64,000 nucleotides of DNA from Pirellula sp. (GTDB lineage: Bacteria; Planctomycetota; Planctomycetia; Pirellulales; Pirellulaceae). The DNA lies in contig JAIPFP010000001.1 in NCBI GenBank assembly GCA_021736575.1, forward strand, positions 1 to 64,000, given 5' to 3'. This document shows positions 1-54,703 of this stretch, one piece after another; the first letter of the stretch is position 1, and each line of letters begins with the position of its first letter. Under the pieces are notes generated by a model that was given only the letters and a program-made list of their open reading frames with translations, made no database searches and was not told the DNA's origin. The position numbers and the translations under genes were made by a program.

Positions 1-895
1 GCCCGTCGTCTCCAACAGCGTGGCCATCGATGCGACCTCAAACGGATCCATCGACAGATCGACCAAGGTCAAGCGTCCGATCCATGATTTGGAAGTGATT
101 CAAACCATCGACACACGCCCCGCCAAGTCCGCCAAAGACAAAGGCGTCACGTTGGAAATTACGGCGACCGGCCGAGGCGTGCTTCCGGAACTCGAGCAAT
201 TGCTCAAAGGATTCGGAAGTGCCGTCGACGGTTACACATGGAATCGGGACAAGACCGTCTCCGAGCCGATTCAAGTCCTCGGAGTTGCCGCAGGTGGCCG
301 TGGCGGAATATTCGGTCCTCAAGCGACGGAGTCGTCCGACACCTACGTCGAGGCTGATTCCGATGGGTTGTTTCGATTGCCAACGACTCGCAAATGGATT
401 GCCAAATTCGAGCCAAGTTCTGTCACCAACAACAACAAGATTCTCGTTCCTACGCTAAACGACGGGCTAGAGGGTTCCCTCAAATCCGAACAGTTCGTCG
501 ACATGGATCTCGTAGCAATCGACTCAAACACAATCCCAATCCAAGCGGTGGCAGAGTCTCCCGCCGCTCTCATCTGGGGTTTGATTTTCGGCTGTCTCGC
601 TTTGATTGCGGTAGCCTGGTTAATCATCCGAAACAAGAGCAAGAAAACCCATCAAGAAGACGATGGATTGCGGCTGCCGAAGGAGATCACACCTTTCTCG
701 GCGGTGATTACCTTGCAACGCTTTGCCAAGAACTACTCGGCCAAGCTGACGCAAGAAGATCGAGGCCGATTGTTGGCAGAGATATCCGATCTTGAGAAGA
801 GTTACTTTGCAGCGGACACCAAAGCCGACCCTCAGACAGCCAAGGATACACTGCATCGCTGGCACACGAGGCTCGGAGGTGTGAACCCGCTATAG
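1..895 (+). CDS. Conserved hypothetical protein with one C-terminal TM segment, 5'-truncated by window edge
   Basis: Frame is open to base 2 upstream of the listed start; hydrophobic segment ALIWGLIFGCLALIAVAWLII followed by a charged cytoplasmic tail. Confidence 0.6.
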   Translation, partial: PVVSNSVAIDATSNGSIDRSTKVKRPIHDLEVIQTIDTRPAKSAKDKGVTLEITATGRGVLPELEQLLKGFGSAVDGYTWNRDKTVSEPIQVLGVAAGGRGGIFGPQATESSDTYVEADSDGLFRLPTTRKWIAKFEPSSVTNNNKILVPTLNDGLEGSLKSEQFVDMDLVAIDSNTIPIQAVAESPAALIWGLIFGCLALIAVAWLIIRNKSKKTHQEDDGLRLPKEITPFSAVITLQRFAKNYSAKLTQEDRGRLLAEISDLEKSYFAADTKADPQTAKDTLHRWHTRLGGVNPL

Positions 896-3091: not shown

Positions 3092-4693
3092 ATGGCTATC
3101 TGCAAGATTCTAGTTCCGTATGATTTCAGCGAATACAGCGATAGGGCTCTTCAAACCGCATACAAGCTCGGACGTCCCTCCGAAATAGAACTGCATTTGG
3201 TTCATGTTTTGGATGACATGGATTCCGATTCCGATCGCAATACATTGCAGAGACTGCAGGCGGTCGTGCTCCCCTCCATCGAGTTGCAATCGGTTGTTCA
3301 TCGGCACGTACTTCGCGGGATCGTCCATGAAGAGATCCTCGACTGCGCTACTAAAAACGATATTGAGTTTATTGTGATCGGCACGCGTGGCAGATCGGGA
3401 ATCCTGCGGTTTGCGATTGGAAGCGTTGCCCAAGCCGTAATGAAAAGCGCAACTTGCCCGGTGGTCGTCGTGAACCGCGACGAGACAGAGAAAAAAGTGG
3501 ACGTGGATCCATCGGACGCTAGCTACCTTAAAAAAAGAACCGGAGACTCGGCCGCGCTCGACATGATCACACGAGCGATGAGCTTGCGAGCCACCGATAT
3601 TCACATCGATCCAGCGGACGATCAGGAATATCAAGTTCGATTGAGAATTGACGGCGTGGTCAAGCCTTATTGCAAACTAGATTCGCGAGTCGCCGAGCAA
3701 CTCTTGCATCAATTCATGACGTTGGCCCGAGTCGACCAGGCGGATCCCTTTCACCCAAAAGAAGGACGAATTGAACTACCCGCCGTGCTGAACGATGTTG
3801 AGGTCCGTCTCACCACAGCTCCAGTCGCAGGTGGGCAAGCGATGGCGATGAGGTTGTTCGCAAAACAGAACGTCTATTTCCCCATGGAGCAACTGGGATT
3901 TCCATCGCAGGGCCTATCCACGGTGAAGCAAATCCTACAAGGACAGGAAGGGCTGGTTTTGGTCACTGGCCCGACGGGATCGGGCAAGTCGACGACCGTC
4001 TATTCAATGCTTGAGTCGTTTGGCAAGCAAAACCGCAATATCGTTTCGATCGAAGATCCGGTTGAATTCGCGGTGCCGTTCGTGAGGCAAATGAGCGTCG
4101 ACGAGAAACACGGCATTACCATGACAAGTGGTCTTCGAACATTGCTGCGAATGGATCCCGACGTTATTTTCATCGGAGAGATTCGCGATACGGAAGCAGC
4201 GGCCATCGCCCTGAGAGCGGCGAATTCCGGCGCCTTTGTGTTTAGCTCGTTGCATGCTCGGGATGTGGCTAGTAGTATCGCACTTCTTCGCGATTTCGGT
4301 GCAACACCAAAAGCAGTTTCCAATGGATTGGCAGGCATCATCAATCAACGACTCGTACGAAGATTGTGTCTAAACTGCCGAAGGGTGATTGGACCTGATG
4401 AGAAACAACGTCACGCGTTCGCCGAATATGGCTTACCCGAGCCAAGTCAAATCTATGAACCCGTTGGTTGCAGTGAGTGCAGAGGTACGGGCTTTTATGG
4501 GCGATGCGGAATCTTTGAGATCGTCGCGTGCAACGGAGCCTTGTCCGAGGCCATCGCATCCGGGGCAAACGAATCCGCCATCCGGCTTTTGGTTCGCCAG
4601 CAGGGTGTCATGAGCTTGACCGGAGATGCACTGACCAAGGTAATCGACGGCACCACCAGCATGGAGGAAGCTCTTTCGGCAAGATGGAACTAA
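3092..4693 (+). CDS. Universal stress protein domain fused to GspE/PilB-type secretion ATPase
   Basis: N-term USP fold with G-2x-G-9x-GS motif (GTRGRSGILRFAIGS); C-term Walker A GPTGSGKST, FIGEIRDTEAA, HAR(D) box and tetracysteine CLNC...CSEC. Confidence 0.9.
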   Translation: MAICKILVPYDFSEYSDRALQTAYKLGRPSEIELHLVHVLDDMDSDSDRNTLQRLQAVVLPSIELQSVVHRHVLRGIVHEEILDCATKNDIEFIVIGTRGRSGILRFAIGSVAQAVMKSATCPVVVVNRDETEKKVDVDPSDASYLKKRTGDSAALDMITRAMSLRATDIHIDPADDQEYQVRLRIDGVVKPYCKLDSRVAEQLLHQFMTLARVDQADPFHPKEGRIELPAVLNDVEVRLTTAPVAGGQAMAMRLFAKQNVYFPMEQLGFPSQGLSTVKQILQGQEGLVLVTGPTGSGKSTTVYSMLESFGKQNRNIVSIEDPVEFAVPFVRQMSVDEKHGITMTSGLRTLLRMDPDVIFIGEIRDTEAAAIALRAANSGAFVFSSLHARDVASSIALLRDFGATPKAVSNGLAGIINQRLVRRLCLNCRRVIGPDEKQRHAFAEYGLPEPSQIYEPVGCSECRGTGFYGRCGIFEIVACNGALSEAIASGANESAIRLLVRQQGVMSLTGDALTKVIDGTTSMEEALSARWN

Positions 4694-4760
4694 CCACTGT
4701 TCACAGCTAAGGCGAGCGGCAGTTTGAACTATTGGAGTGCAAAGTCCCATGAACTCTGTC

Positions 4761-4789
4761 CCCCCCTTCTCCTCGCGAGGAGAAGGGGC
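4761..4789. repeat. Intergenic palindrome (CCCCTTCTCCTCGCGAGGAGAAGGGG)
   Basis: Near-perfect inverted repeat just 3' of the USP-GspE gene. Confidence 0.7.
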
Positions 4790-4990
4790 AGGGGGATGAG
4801 GAGCCGGAAGATTCTCATCTAGTACATCCCTCGCCTTGCCAAACATAGACGAAAATACGGACGCAAAAAACACTCGCACCTCCAAGTCAAAAGCGCCTGC
4901 TAGCCAGGACTCCGCCTGTAATAAGTGGGTACGACTTGTCAGAGATTATTAGTTATCACTGAAACCGATCCACTGCGACTGCCAAAACTG

Positions 4991-5085
4991 AAACCGGGAT
5001 AATTGGCCTGAATCAGGGATAATTAAGTTGACAAATCAGGGATAACTCCGATAGCTTCAGGGATAACTACCCCAAACCGGGATAA
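4991..5085 (+). repeat. Five phased direct repeats with core GGGATAA
   Basis: Cores begin at 4996, 5016, 5039, 5060, 5079 (spacing 20, 23, 21, 19 bp), directly upstream of ORF 5107. Confidence 0.85.
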
Positions 5086-5106
5086 AAACAAGTTCGCCCA
5101 TAAAAC

Positions 5107-5604
5107 ATGCGATTCCTAGTCAAACGCAAGATTCAACAAGCATTTCCCATCTGCGGTATTCCCGCAGCATCTACGGCCATTCAACTGACTCACAGCGTTG
5201 AACGTCTGTACGAGATACTTGGCGACCGCTGCTGGAAGGATCTCACACCAACTCAATACCGACATTGCGCTGATGGGTTTTCACTTCTCACTGTGGTCGG
5301 TCTGCACTACTACCTGCCAGGTTACATGACTGCCGAACTTGACGATCACGTAGAAGCTGATGTGGTTGCCGAATACTGGACGTATAGTCTCGGCGGAACC
5401 TCGGAGTTTGACAGGCTGCGAATGACTTCGCTGGGCGAACTGATTACGCTCGACCAGATTGATGCCATAGCCCTGTGGATCGGTTACTACGTAAACAGGT
5501 ATGACAAGAACGAGTATACTGAGCGATCATACGCAACGCTTGAGCATTGGGCGAACCAAGCGATGCACGCCAAACCCTCAATCAGCGATTTTGATTCGCG
5601 TTGA
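5107..5604 (+). CDS. DUF6714-like hypothetical protein (cassette-like gene)
   Basis: Pattern ...CWKDLTPTQ...LHYYLPGYM...LDQIDAIALWIGYY; 3' end lies inside an attC-like site. Confidence 0.55.
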   Translation: MRFLVKRKIQQAFPICGIPAASTAIQLTHSVERLYEILGDRCWKDLTPTQYRHCADGFSLLTVVGLHYYLPGYMTAELDDHVEADVVAEYWTYSLGGTSEFDRLRMTSLGELITLDQIDAIALWIGYYVNRYDKNEYTERSYATLEHWANQAMHAKPSISDFDSR

Positions 5605-5642
5605 GTCTACTCCTCGGCCTCGCTGATCGCGGCCGTTCGTCG
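5551..5642 (+). mobile_element. attC-like integron recombination site 1
   Basis: CGAAC-CAA-GCGAT(G)CA ... TGATCGC-GGCC-GTTCG imperfect palindrome with extrahelical G in left arm; same architecture as site 2. Confidence 0.65.
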
Positions 5643-5657
5643 CGATAGAATGGTCAC

Positions 5658-6140
5658 ATGGAAACGATTTACATCGAGACGACGATTGTTGGGCACTTGA
5701 CTGGCAGCCTGATGTCAGACCCGATAGTGTCCGCACGCCAGCAACTTACCCGAGAATGGTGGCAGAATCACTCGCCACTTTACCAACTGTTCATCTCGCA
5801 GCTTGTGCTCGATGAATGTGGCGCCGGGAACGCAAAACTCGCAATGGAGCGATTAGATGCCGTAAAAACCCTGGATTTGCTTGATGGAACGGATGAGGCG
5901 GATGCGCTCGCCGCTGCGTTGATCGCTGAAAATGCCGTTCCCGCAACAGAACCACGCGACGCCTATCACATTGCAATTGCGGCCACGAACGGAGTAAAAT
6001 ACTTGTTGACATGGAACTTCAAGCATATTGCCAACGCTTCACGCAGAACGAGAATCGAGACGGTTTGTCGTGATTCGGGATTCGAGCCTCCAATCATCTG
6101 TACGCCGGACGAACTTTTAGGAAATGCAAATGACACCTAA
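5658..6140 (+). CDS. PIN-domain (VapC-like) toxin
   Basis: METIYIETTIVGHL start, acidic residues, DAYHIAIAATNGVKYLLTWNFKHI motif of PIN-type toxins. Confidence 0.85.
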   Translation: METIYIETTIVGHLTGSLMSDPIVSARQQLTREWWQNHSPLYQLFISQLVLDECGAGNAKLAMERLDAVKTLDLLDGTDEADALAAALIAENAVPATEPRDAYHIAIAATNGVKYLLTWNFKHIANASRRTRIETVCRDSGFEPPIICTPDELLGNANDT

Positions 6141-6369
6141 TCCAATCACTGAAGAGATCCGCTCGATACGCCACCAACTTGCGGCCGAGCAGGGAAACGA
6201 TGTCTCTCGGATCGGTGCTGAGTTGCGACGTCGGCAGGCTATTTCGGGGCGTAGAGTCGTAAGACTAGCACCACGCACCCCAGACCGAAGAGCGACGAAC
6301 AATCCGATGCACCCAAGCAGCGGATCGGCCGTCTCTGGGATGGATACATCTACCCCCGCCGCTGGGTGA
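6124..6369 (+). CDS. Putative antitoxin partner of PIN toxin (likely start ATG 6130)
   Basis: MTPNPITEEIRSIRHQLAAEQGNDVSRIGAELRRRQAISGRRVVRLAPR resembles the short partner usually paired with this PIN family; overlaps toxin 3' end. Confidence 0.65.
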   Translation: MQMTPNPITEEIRSIRHQLAAEQGNDVSRIGAELRRRQAISGRRVVRLAPRTPDRRATNNPMHPSSGSAVSGMDTSTPAAG

Positions 6370-6385
6370 TCGGTGCCGTTCCCTC
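6294..6385 (+). mobile_element. attC-like integron recombination site 2
   Basis: CGAAC-AAT-CCGAT(G)CACCC..AGC..GG ... CCGCCGCTGGGTGATCGG-TGCC-GTTCC; AAC-to-GTT span 83 bp vs 84 bp in site 1. Confidence 0.7.
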
Positions 6386-31844: not shown

Positions 31845-31973
31845 GACACAGCCGACAAACGGTACAACAGGCACGCTCTGCCGTGCCGTTCGCAGTCCAG
31901 CTTTTGCCAGGATTCTAGGTGGACGGCACATGCAATGTGCCGACCTACTACTTTGACTTTTGCCGGCTGTGTC
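31845..31973. mobile_element. MITE-like element copy A (TIR GACACAGCCGaCAAA)
   Basis: Terminal inverted repeats GACACAGCCGACAAA / TTTTGCCGGCTGTGTC, two internal hairpins; inverted second copy at 50690-50807. Confidence 0.75.
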
Positions 31974-37026: not shown

Positions 37027-37915
37027 TGAGATTTGGAAGGCTTTTTGTATCGATATTTTTGGTTAGGGTCTGTTGGTTTATCTGGGATAGTAAGCTGGAC
37101 TAAGTCTCCTCGAAGTAGGTCTGCCATGTAGTTTGACCGAACATACTCTTGGTTCCGACCAACAAACCCCGCAACCTCACTAATGCTTAAATCCTTCCAT
37201 TTCAGCGGGGCGACAATTGCATCTAAGATAGCCCCCGGTTTAGATTTTCCACCCAAAGCATTGAGAATTTTCGATAACTCTGGAGGAACCAGGTCCCCAG
37301 GTTTGCCCCCAAGCTCCCCTGATTGACGCTCGTCGAGCTCCCTAGGTTTGCCGTCGAGCTCCCTAGGTTTGCTGTCGAGCTCCCTAGGTTTGCTGTCGAG
37401 CTCCCTAGGTTTGCTGTCGAGCTCCCTAGGTTTGGAAGTGGAAACGTCTGCCGTGGGGGCGATCGGCCAGTTCTCTAGGGCTTGAGAAGTAATGACATAG
37501 TAGGTAGCAGAACCTCTCCCCTTTTTGTCAAGAAGCCCACAATCGCATAGTTTTTTAAGTTGCTTACTTGCCGTGAGCGTATCCACATGTCGGTTGATAT
37601 CGCGATAAGTTGAATTGTTTATCGCGCCCACTTCCCGAGCCGAGATCATCGCTTTCATTTCTTCTTCATTGAGATTGTGGGACTCGAATGATTTGAGCCA
37701 TGTAAGATCTTCGGGACTGAGAAAATGGTGGAAAAGCAATCATCGGTTGGTTCGACACCGAGGATAAGATATCCGCCGCCAAGGCATGGCTCGTTTGCAA
37801 ATGCAAAAACCGTTTCCAGTGCGGAAGTACCGAATGAGCTTCCGGCCTTAGCCTCGATGGATACATTTTCGTCGAGTGCGTTTAGCTCCTCGATCAATTG
37901 ATCCGCAGTTTTCAT
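37023..37915 (-). pseudogene. AlbA_2/Schlafen-like DNA-binding ATPase-type protein of a type I RM operon, split by deletion/frameshift
   Basis: N-term fragment 37655-37915 (IEAKAGSSFGTSALETVFAFANEPCLGGGYLILGVEPTDD) and C-term fragment 37023-37739 in another frame (SPEDLTWLKSFESHNLNEEEMKAMISAREVGAINNSTYRDI); middle missing. Confidence 0.7.
37331..37434. repeat. 21-bp tandem repeat x5, encodes heptapeptide KPRELDS
   Basis: gtcgagctccctaggtttgc(t/c) units in frame; protein ELDSKPRELDSKPRELDSKPRELDGKPRELDE. Confidence 0.95.
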
Positions 37916-50689: not shown

Positions 50690-50807
50690 CAGTCGACAAA
50701 AGTCAAAGTAGTAGGCACATTCCATGTGCCGTCCACCTAGAATCATGGCAAAAACTTGACTGCGAACGGCACGGCGGAGCGTGCCTGCACCTTTTGTCGG
50801 CTGTGTC
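50690..50807. mobile_element. MITE-like element copy B (inverted relative to copy A)
   Basis: Reverse complement shares GCACGCTC.GCCGTGCCGTTCGCAGTC.AG.TTTTGCCA.GATTCTAGGTGGACGGCACATG.AATGTGCC with 31845-31973. Confidence 0.75.
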
Positions 50808-54526: not shown

Positions 54527-54633
54527 AACGTTCTGCTATCGGTTTATTGAGAATGGGGTGGGTGGAGGAAAAGACGGCTAATGGCCGAAAATTATAACGA
54601 CCCGACGACGCTTGGCCACAGACGATTGCTCAG

Positions 54634-54703
54634 TGCAACAGTTTATTCAGGGCAGCAGTTTATTCAGGGCAGCAGTTTATTCAGGGCAGCACTTCATTCA
54701 GGG
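54634..54703. repeat. 17-bp tandem repeat x4 overlapping the 3' end of zinc-ribbon gene
   Basis: gcaacagtttattcagg/gcagcagtttattcagg (x2)/gcagcacttcattcagg. Confidence 0.95.

Follow-up and report, generated by a model that had tools for sequence, protein, structure and literature searches.

The left part of the window, by which we mean the whole 64-kb stretch of DNA analyzed here, very probably holds a decayed chromosomal integron platform, that is, a relic integron, of a Pirellula-like lake planctomycete. Read along the forward strand, the platform would consist of a relic of the integrase gene intI (on the minus strand), the site attI, a first cassette with a DUF6714 gene, attC1, a second cassette with a PIN pair, and attC2. 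The body of intI was lost at this platform by internal deletion, while the attI landing site survived. An earlier note on this DNA had left open whether the locus is a dispersed cassette or part of a relic array; the presence of two cassettes together with an attI-like site and an intI with an internal deletion settles the choice in favor of a relic platform. The account was incomplete in that it overlooked the intI remnant, attI and the first cassette.

An intI relic, attI and a first cassette

The reference for the relic is the complete intI on contig C8 of the same genome (L039 828–2453, G000:C8), which scores 428 bits against a curated cut-off of 265, covers the whole of TIGR02249 and encodes a 541-aa protein that extends beyond the ordinary integron integrase domain by ~125 residues at its N terminus and ~100 at its C terminus. 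In the window, a 3′-end remnant of intI (4802–4879, minus strand) corresponds to residues ~501–526 of the C8 IntI with 81% identity in tblastn; at the DNA level it is 89% identical to C8:2329–2434, and the homology reaches into the 3′ flank as far as ~4732. Fused to it lies the leader from just upstream of the intI start (4882–4919, minus strand; 97.5% identity to C8:797–836). Since the reverse complement of the sequence upstream of the C8 intI is found at 4882–5094 and the 3′ end of that gene at 4732–4879, the window has both ends of intI with ~1.5 kb deleted between them (relative to C8:837–2328), followed by the attI-like site. The earlier note saw no integrase in the window, and there is none beyond the intI relic, which together with the attI-like site occupies ~4802–5094. 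A GC-rich short repeat (CTTCTCCTCG.GAGGAGAAGGGG) at 4763–4803, within the intI-tail flank, has many dispersed copies across the genomes of the genus, and the window genome is rich in interspersed repeats.

The attI-like site (4986–5094, forward strand; nhmmer E 2.5e-34) carries repeated GGGATAA units and ends in AACAAG^TT. No sigma-70 promoter was matched in the attI region. Cassette 1 (5095–5637, forward strand) extends from the GTT of attI to the GTT of attC1 and contains a 165-aa DUF6714 gene (5107–5604, forward strand; Pfam PF20461, 38.5 bits, cut-off 27). Its insertion point is at AAG|TT of attI, so that a first cassette sits in attI at G^TT as in an integron, with only a relic of intI in cis. 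In about 20 aligned copies of attI from this and related genomes of the genus, conservation runs as far as AAG|TT and the sequences beyond are unrelated, as would be expected if each attI had received a first cassette of its own.

Two attC sites in the window

The two sites recognized in the earlier note, at 5551–5642 and 6294–6385, do share the architecture described there (GAAC, spacer, CGAT, unpaired G, CA…TG, ATCG, spacer, GTTC), and remeasurement gave the same AAC-to-GTT lengths of 84 nt (5554–5637) and 83 nt (6298–6380). A custom covariance model (R2), proposed in the note as a check and built with both window sites left out, returned two matches in all on the 64-kb window: attC1 (5550–5641, forward strand), whose inner stem is degenerate, with 39.7 bits (E 8.4e-8), and the well-formed attC2 (6294–6384, forward strand) with 80.2 bits (E 2.8e-18), both E-values being rough. 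Such a pair is far beyond chance. Folding of the bottom strand, another check proposed, succeeded for one of the two: single-sequence DNA folding gave an attC hairpin for site 2, with the bottom strand scoring better (z −1.96), and none for site 1 (z −0.3 and −0.4), for which this method is not decisive. A structural scan scored site 2 well and site 1 weakly, the latter needing the covariance model; applied to both strands of 1.31 Mb of related loci, the scan identified 33 distinct attC-like sites, whereas the same sequences reversed yielded none.

In an alignment of 30 attC sites that includes both window sites, standard pairs fill 92.4% of paired cells (69.0% in shuffles), two-sided changes occur in 17 of 22 pairs, and covariation reaches 0.571 (0.155 shuffled), figures that are biased upward because most members of the alignment were chosen by pairing. 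Pairing collapses when the structure is slid along the alignment. The sites are imperfect palindromes with AAC/GTT core ends in which the L″/L′ and inner stem pairing is kept. Their extrahelical bases read G-N6-A on the top strand and therefore T-N6-C on the bottom strand, a signature that attC2 shares with most members of the family. IntI1 excises sites of the T-N6-G or T-N6-C type efficiently, G being the second position in most attC sites (PMC3053210), and the T-N6-C of this family is of a type used by IntI enzymes (PMC3053210). attC1 has an inserted extra base and several inner-stem mismatches and, being degenerate, may be inactive.

The outer boxes, GGCGAAC/GTTCGTC and GACGAAC/GTTCCCT, depart from the RYYYAAC/GTTRRRY consensus, as had been remarked; across the family AAC/GTT is invariant and the remaining positions vary. 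The mismatch is not decisive, because planctomycete attC have their own model (Ghaly et al., 2021; PMC8352920). The held-out covariance model and the base-pair covariation support the attC folded-site logic proposed for the two sites and, on this sequence evidence, both are genuine integron recombination sites. A strict two-arm pattern with a 20–50 nt gap, which was too short, had no match in 60 relatives and the window genome, and most of the 37 matches to the loose core CGATGCA..TGATCG in the window genome were not attC.

Cassette 2 and its mobility

Cassette 2 (5638–6380, forward strand; 743 bp) contains two ORFs, in line with the single gene pair that the earlier note described for the GTT-to-GTT interval. 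The 160-aa PIN-domain toxin-like gene (5658–6140, forward strand) matches PF01850 with 20.1 bits, below the cut-off of 23.6, and its product had no match among the sequences of solved structures. The second ORF (6124–6369, forward strand; 81 aa), the 3′ end of which is coded by attC2, has no match in Pfam, NCBIfam or PADLOC; it is presumed to be the antitoxin solely because it and the PIN gene are conserved as a pair, its relatives lying beside PIN relatives at eight other loci (L205, L217, L218, L216, L111, L118, L103 and L106) and, as a weaker case, at L264. The two genes would probably form a toxin–antitoxin pair that stabilizes the array.

A copy of cassette 2 in another species, G024:C141, is 94% identical at the DNA level over exactly 743 bp, from after one GTT to the next, with a different attC upstream and other sequence downstream. 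G024 and the window genome are otherwise distant; their atpC proteins are 68% identical. As the copy starts and stops exactly at GTT between different neighbors, cassette 2 is mobile as a cassette, and the comparison indicates that it has moved horizontally and was recently exchanged with another species. The earlier proposal that the PIN pair is an integron cassette is borne out by this GTT-to-GTT block. Relatives of the PIN gene, mostly accompanied by relatives of the second ORF, are also found on contigs C218, C213, C310 (PIN only) and C16 of the window genome, as well as in G015, G018, G019 and G021; several adjoin attC or attI, and none was found in viral contigs. The 6.4-kb contig C16 (L118, G000:C16) has four attC matches and several PIN/partner cassettes, and attI was not found on it.

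Many attI copies and proposed integrase action in trans

The window genome contains about nine copies of attI, on C109 (the window), C8, C218, C310, C299, C18, C154, C304 and, in part, C271, and a complete intI adjoins only the one on C8. Contig C19 terminates within a second intI, 86% identical, so another intact copy is possible. The genome-wide search for further attC copies and an integrase that the earlier note had called for thus yielded both, R2 finding 29 attC matches (the weakest marginal, hence at least 28) on about 16 contigs. As lower bounds, the same model found 2–72 attC matches in every one of the genus's 27 genomes; in other genera the counts ranged from none to many. The named records with the attI DNA pattern are all lake MAGs labelled Pirellula or a single MAG of Planctomycetaceae, apart from two short, weak matches in the unrelated genomes L257 and L260 that are probably due to chance, and no attI homologue was found in the plasmids searched. 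The attI on C304 (L117 ~530–730, minus strand) looks empty, because its GTT leads directly into sequence that in C218 lies behind the last attC.

The best natural example here of cassettes swapped where no integrase lies in cis is a pair of orthologous loci in two sister genomes, G009_C48 (L095) and G015_C77 (L104). Their upstream flanks are 90% identical over 4.6 kb and their attI 96%; homology ends at attI and returns after attC, enclosing a 1051-bp cassette (288-aa gene) in the former and a 456-bp cassette (104-aa gene) in the latter, each with its own attC, and no intI is detectable at either locus. Different cassettes at orthologous attI sites without intI point to an integrase acting in trans, and the simplest reading would be cassette exchange after intI loss by an integrase encoded elsewhere. 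Exchange earlier than independent losses of intI, or homologous recombination through the shared flanks, could also have produced the difference. The orthologous loci G000_C8 and G009_C83, which have intI, differ in their cassettes from +3. At the window locus itself, G015 has the same gspE neighbor (95%), an intI remnant deleted differently and the last part of attI, after which another gene follows, thioredoxin-like by eye. On the atpC side, neither G009 nor G015 conserves the flank of the window to the left of ~6627, which precludes an empty-site comparison there. On the other side, a single 533-aa ORF (3092–4693) combines Usp and T2SSE domains (universal stress protein and type II/IV secretion ATPase), an unusual fusion that flanks the relic integron both in the window genome and in G015.

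We consider it reasonably likely, from these comparisons, that an IntI encoded elsewhere (on contig C8) acts in trans on attI sites that lack intI. The C8-encoded enzyme would still insert and excise cassettes there, presumably through recombination of attI, at G^TT, with the bottom strand of attC in its folded form. Counting against this is that no complete intI was found in G015, an assembly that is 92% complete. The broader proposal of a distributed integron, in which some nine attI spread over the chromosome, most of them without intI, would all be used in trans by a single IntI or a small number of them, we hold evenly in the balance; if true, the genome would keep and express its cassettes at many places on the chromosome.

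It is also possible, though we regard it as somewhat improbable, that recombination ceased when intI was deleted and that both cassettes are fossils captured earlier. The missing intI body at the window locus and the degenerate attC1 would suit such a dead relic, as would the equal divergence of attI and the intI relic from C8: at ~89% each, the window attI is kept no better than the adjacent relic, which gives no sign of selection for this copy. The sequences of attC2 and attI are intact, however, cassette 2 was recently exchanged with another species, and cassettes differ at orthologous sites without intI elsewhere in the genus. Far less probable is an off-target (attG-like) insertion, in which IntI placed the cassettes at a secondary chromosomal site devoid of an integron platform: off-target insertion by a distant IntI has been proposed as one origin of integrase-less attC clusters (PMC8618304), and several attC clusters of the window genome have no recognizable attI nearby, but the cassettes in the window are directly preceded by an attI-like site and an intI relic. 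Such insertion may nevertheless hold for the clusters on C16, C187 and C298. Practically no weight attaches to the reading of the window sites as generic inverted repeats (REP-like or terminators) and not attC, which the many interspersed repeats of the genome and the poor folding of site 1 on its own would fit, but which covariation, exact cassette boundaries, attI junctions and the intI in the genome contradict and the copy in G024, bounded exactly by the cassette ends and set among other neighbors, refutes.

Relation to known integrons

The decayed platform resembles the sedentary chromosomal integrons, whose attC are taxon-specific and have been modelled for planctomycetes (PMC8352920), in its intI–attI–cassette order with divergent intI, its attC folded-site logic, and cassette genes that are mostly of unknown function and include toxin–antitoxin-like pairs. 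Unlike those, the arrays here are small, with one to few cassettes at many chromosomal copies of attI, and intI is deleted at most copies examined. With two attC and no intact integrase nearby, only the intI relic, the locus is also like a CALIN (cluster of attC sites lacking integrase), and it would score as one by the two-attC rule of IntegronFinder 2 (PMC9024848) if that program's own model finds both sites. In contrast to a CALIN, its origin by intI deletion is visible, because attI and the intI relic persist. Routes to CALIN, among them intI loss and off-target insertion, have been described along with toxin–antitoxin cassettes (PMC8618304).

Integrons with an intI pseudogene (“pseudo-integrons”) and genomes with multiple intI are known (PMC2426708), and the former share with the window a decayed intI and an intact related intI in the same genome; here, however, nearly the whole of intI is deleted internally while attI is kept, and there are many such platforms per genome. 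Cassettes of the delta-attI type (PMC12901181) likewise have attI sequence away from a cis integrase, but in those the attI fragment lies downstream as the cassette's own site, whereas the copies described here precede the first cassette and are often accompanied by remnants of intI.

Planctomycete attC, intI pseudogenes, integrase-less attC clusters and toxin–antitoxin cassettes are therefore already known. What surprises is the number of integrase-less attI platforms together with a sign of continuing cassette exchange; a limited literature search returned no description of a genome in which many attI platforms are used by an integrase in trans (“one integrase, many attI”). Outside class 1 integrons attI is poorly described (PMC9024848), and here it is defined by ~20 natural copies whose conservation ends exactly at the recombination point. 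Platforms without intI that hold differing cassettes in sister genomes make integrase action in trans on several attI directly testable, and bear on how integrase-less attC clusters arise and stay active.

Other repeats in the window

Elsewhere in the window, a long inverted repeat pair (31868–31969 and 50690–50787), 18.7 kb apart, is 92% complementary over 77 nt plus 26 nt, and short tandem repeats with 21-nt and 17-nt units occupy 37287–37436 and 54619–54703, respectively.
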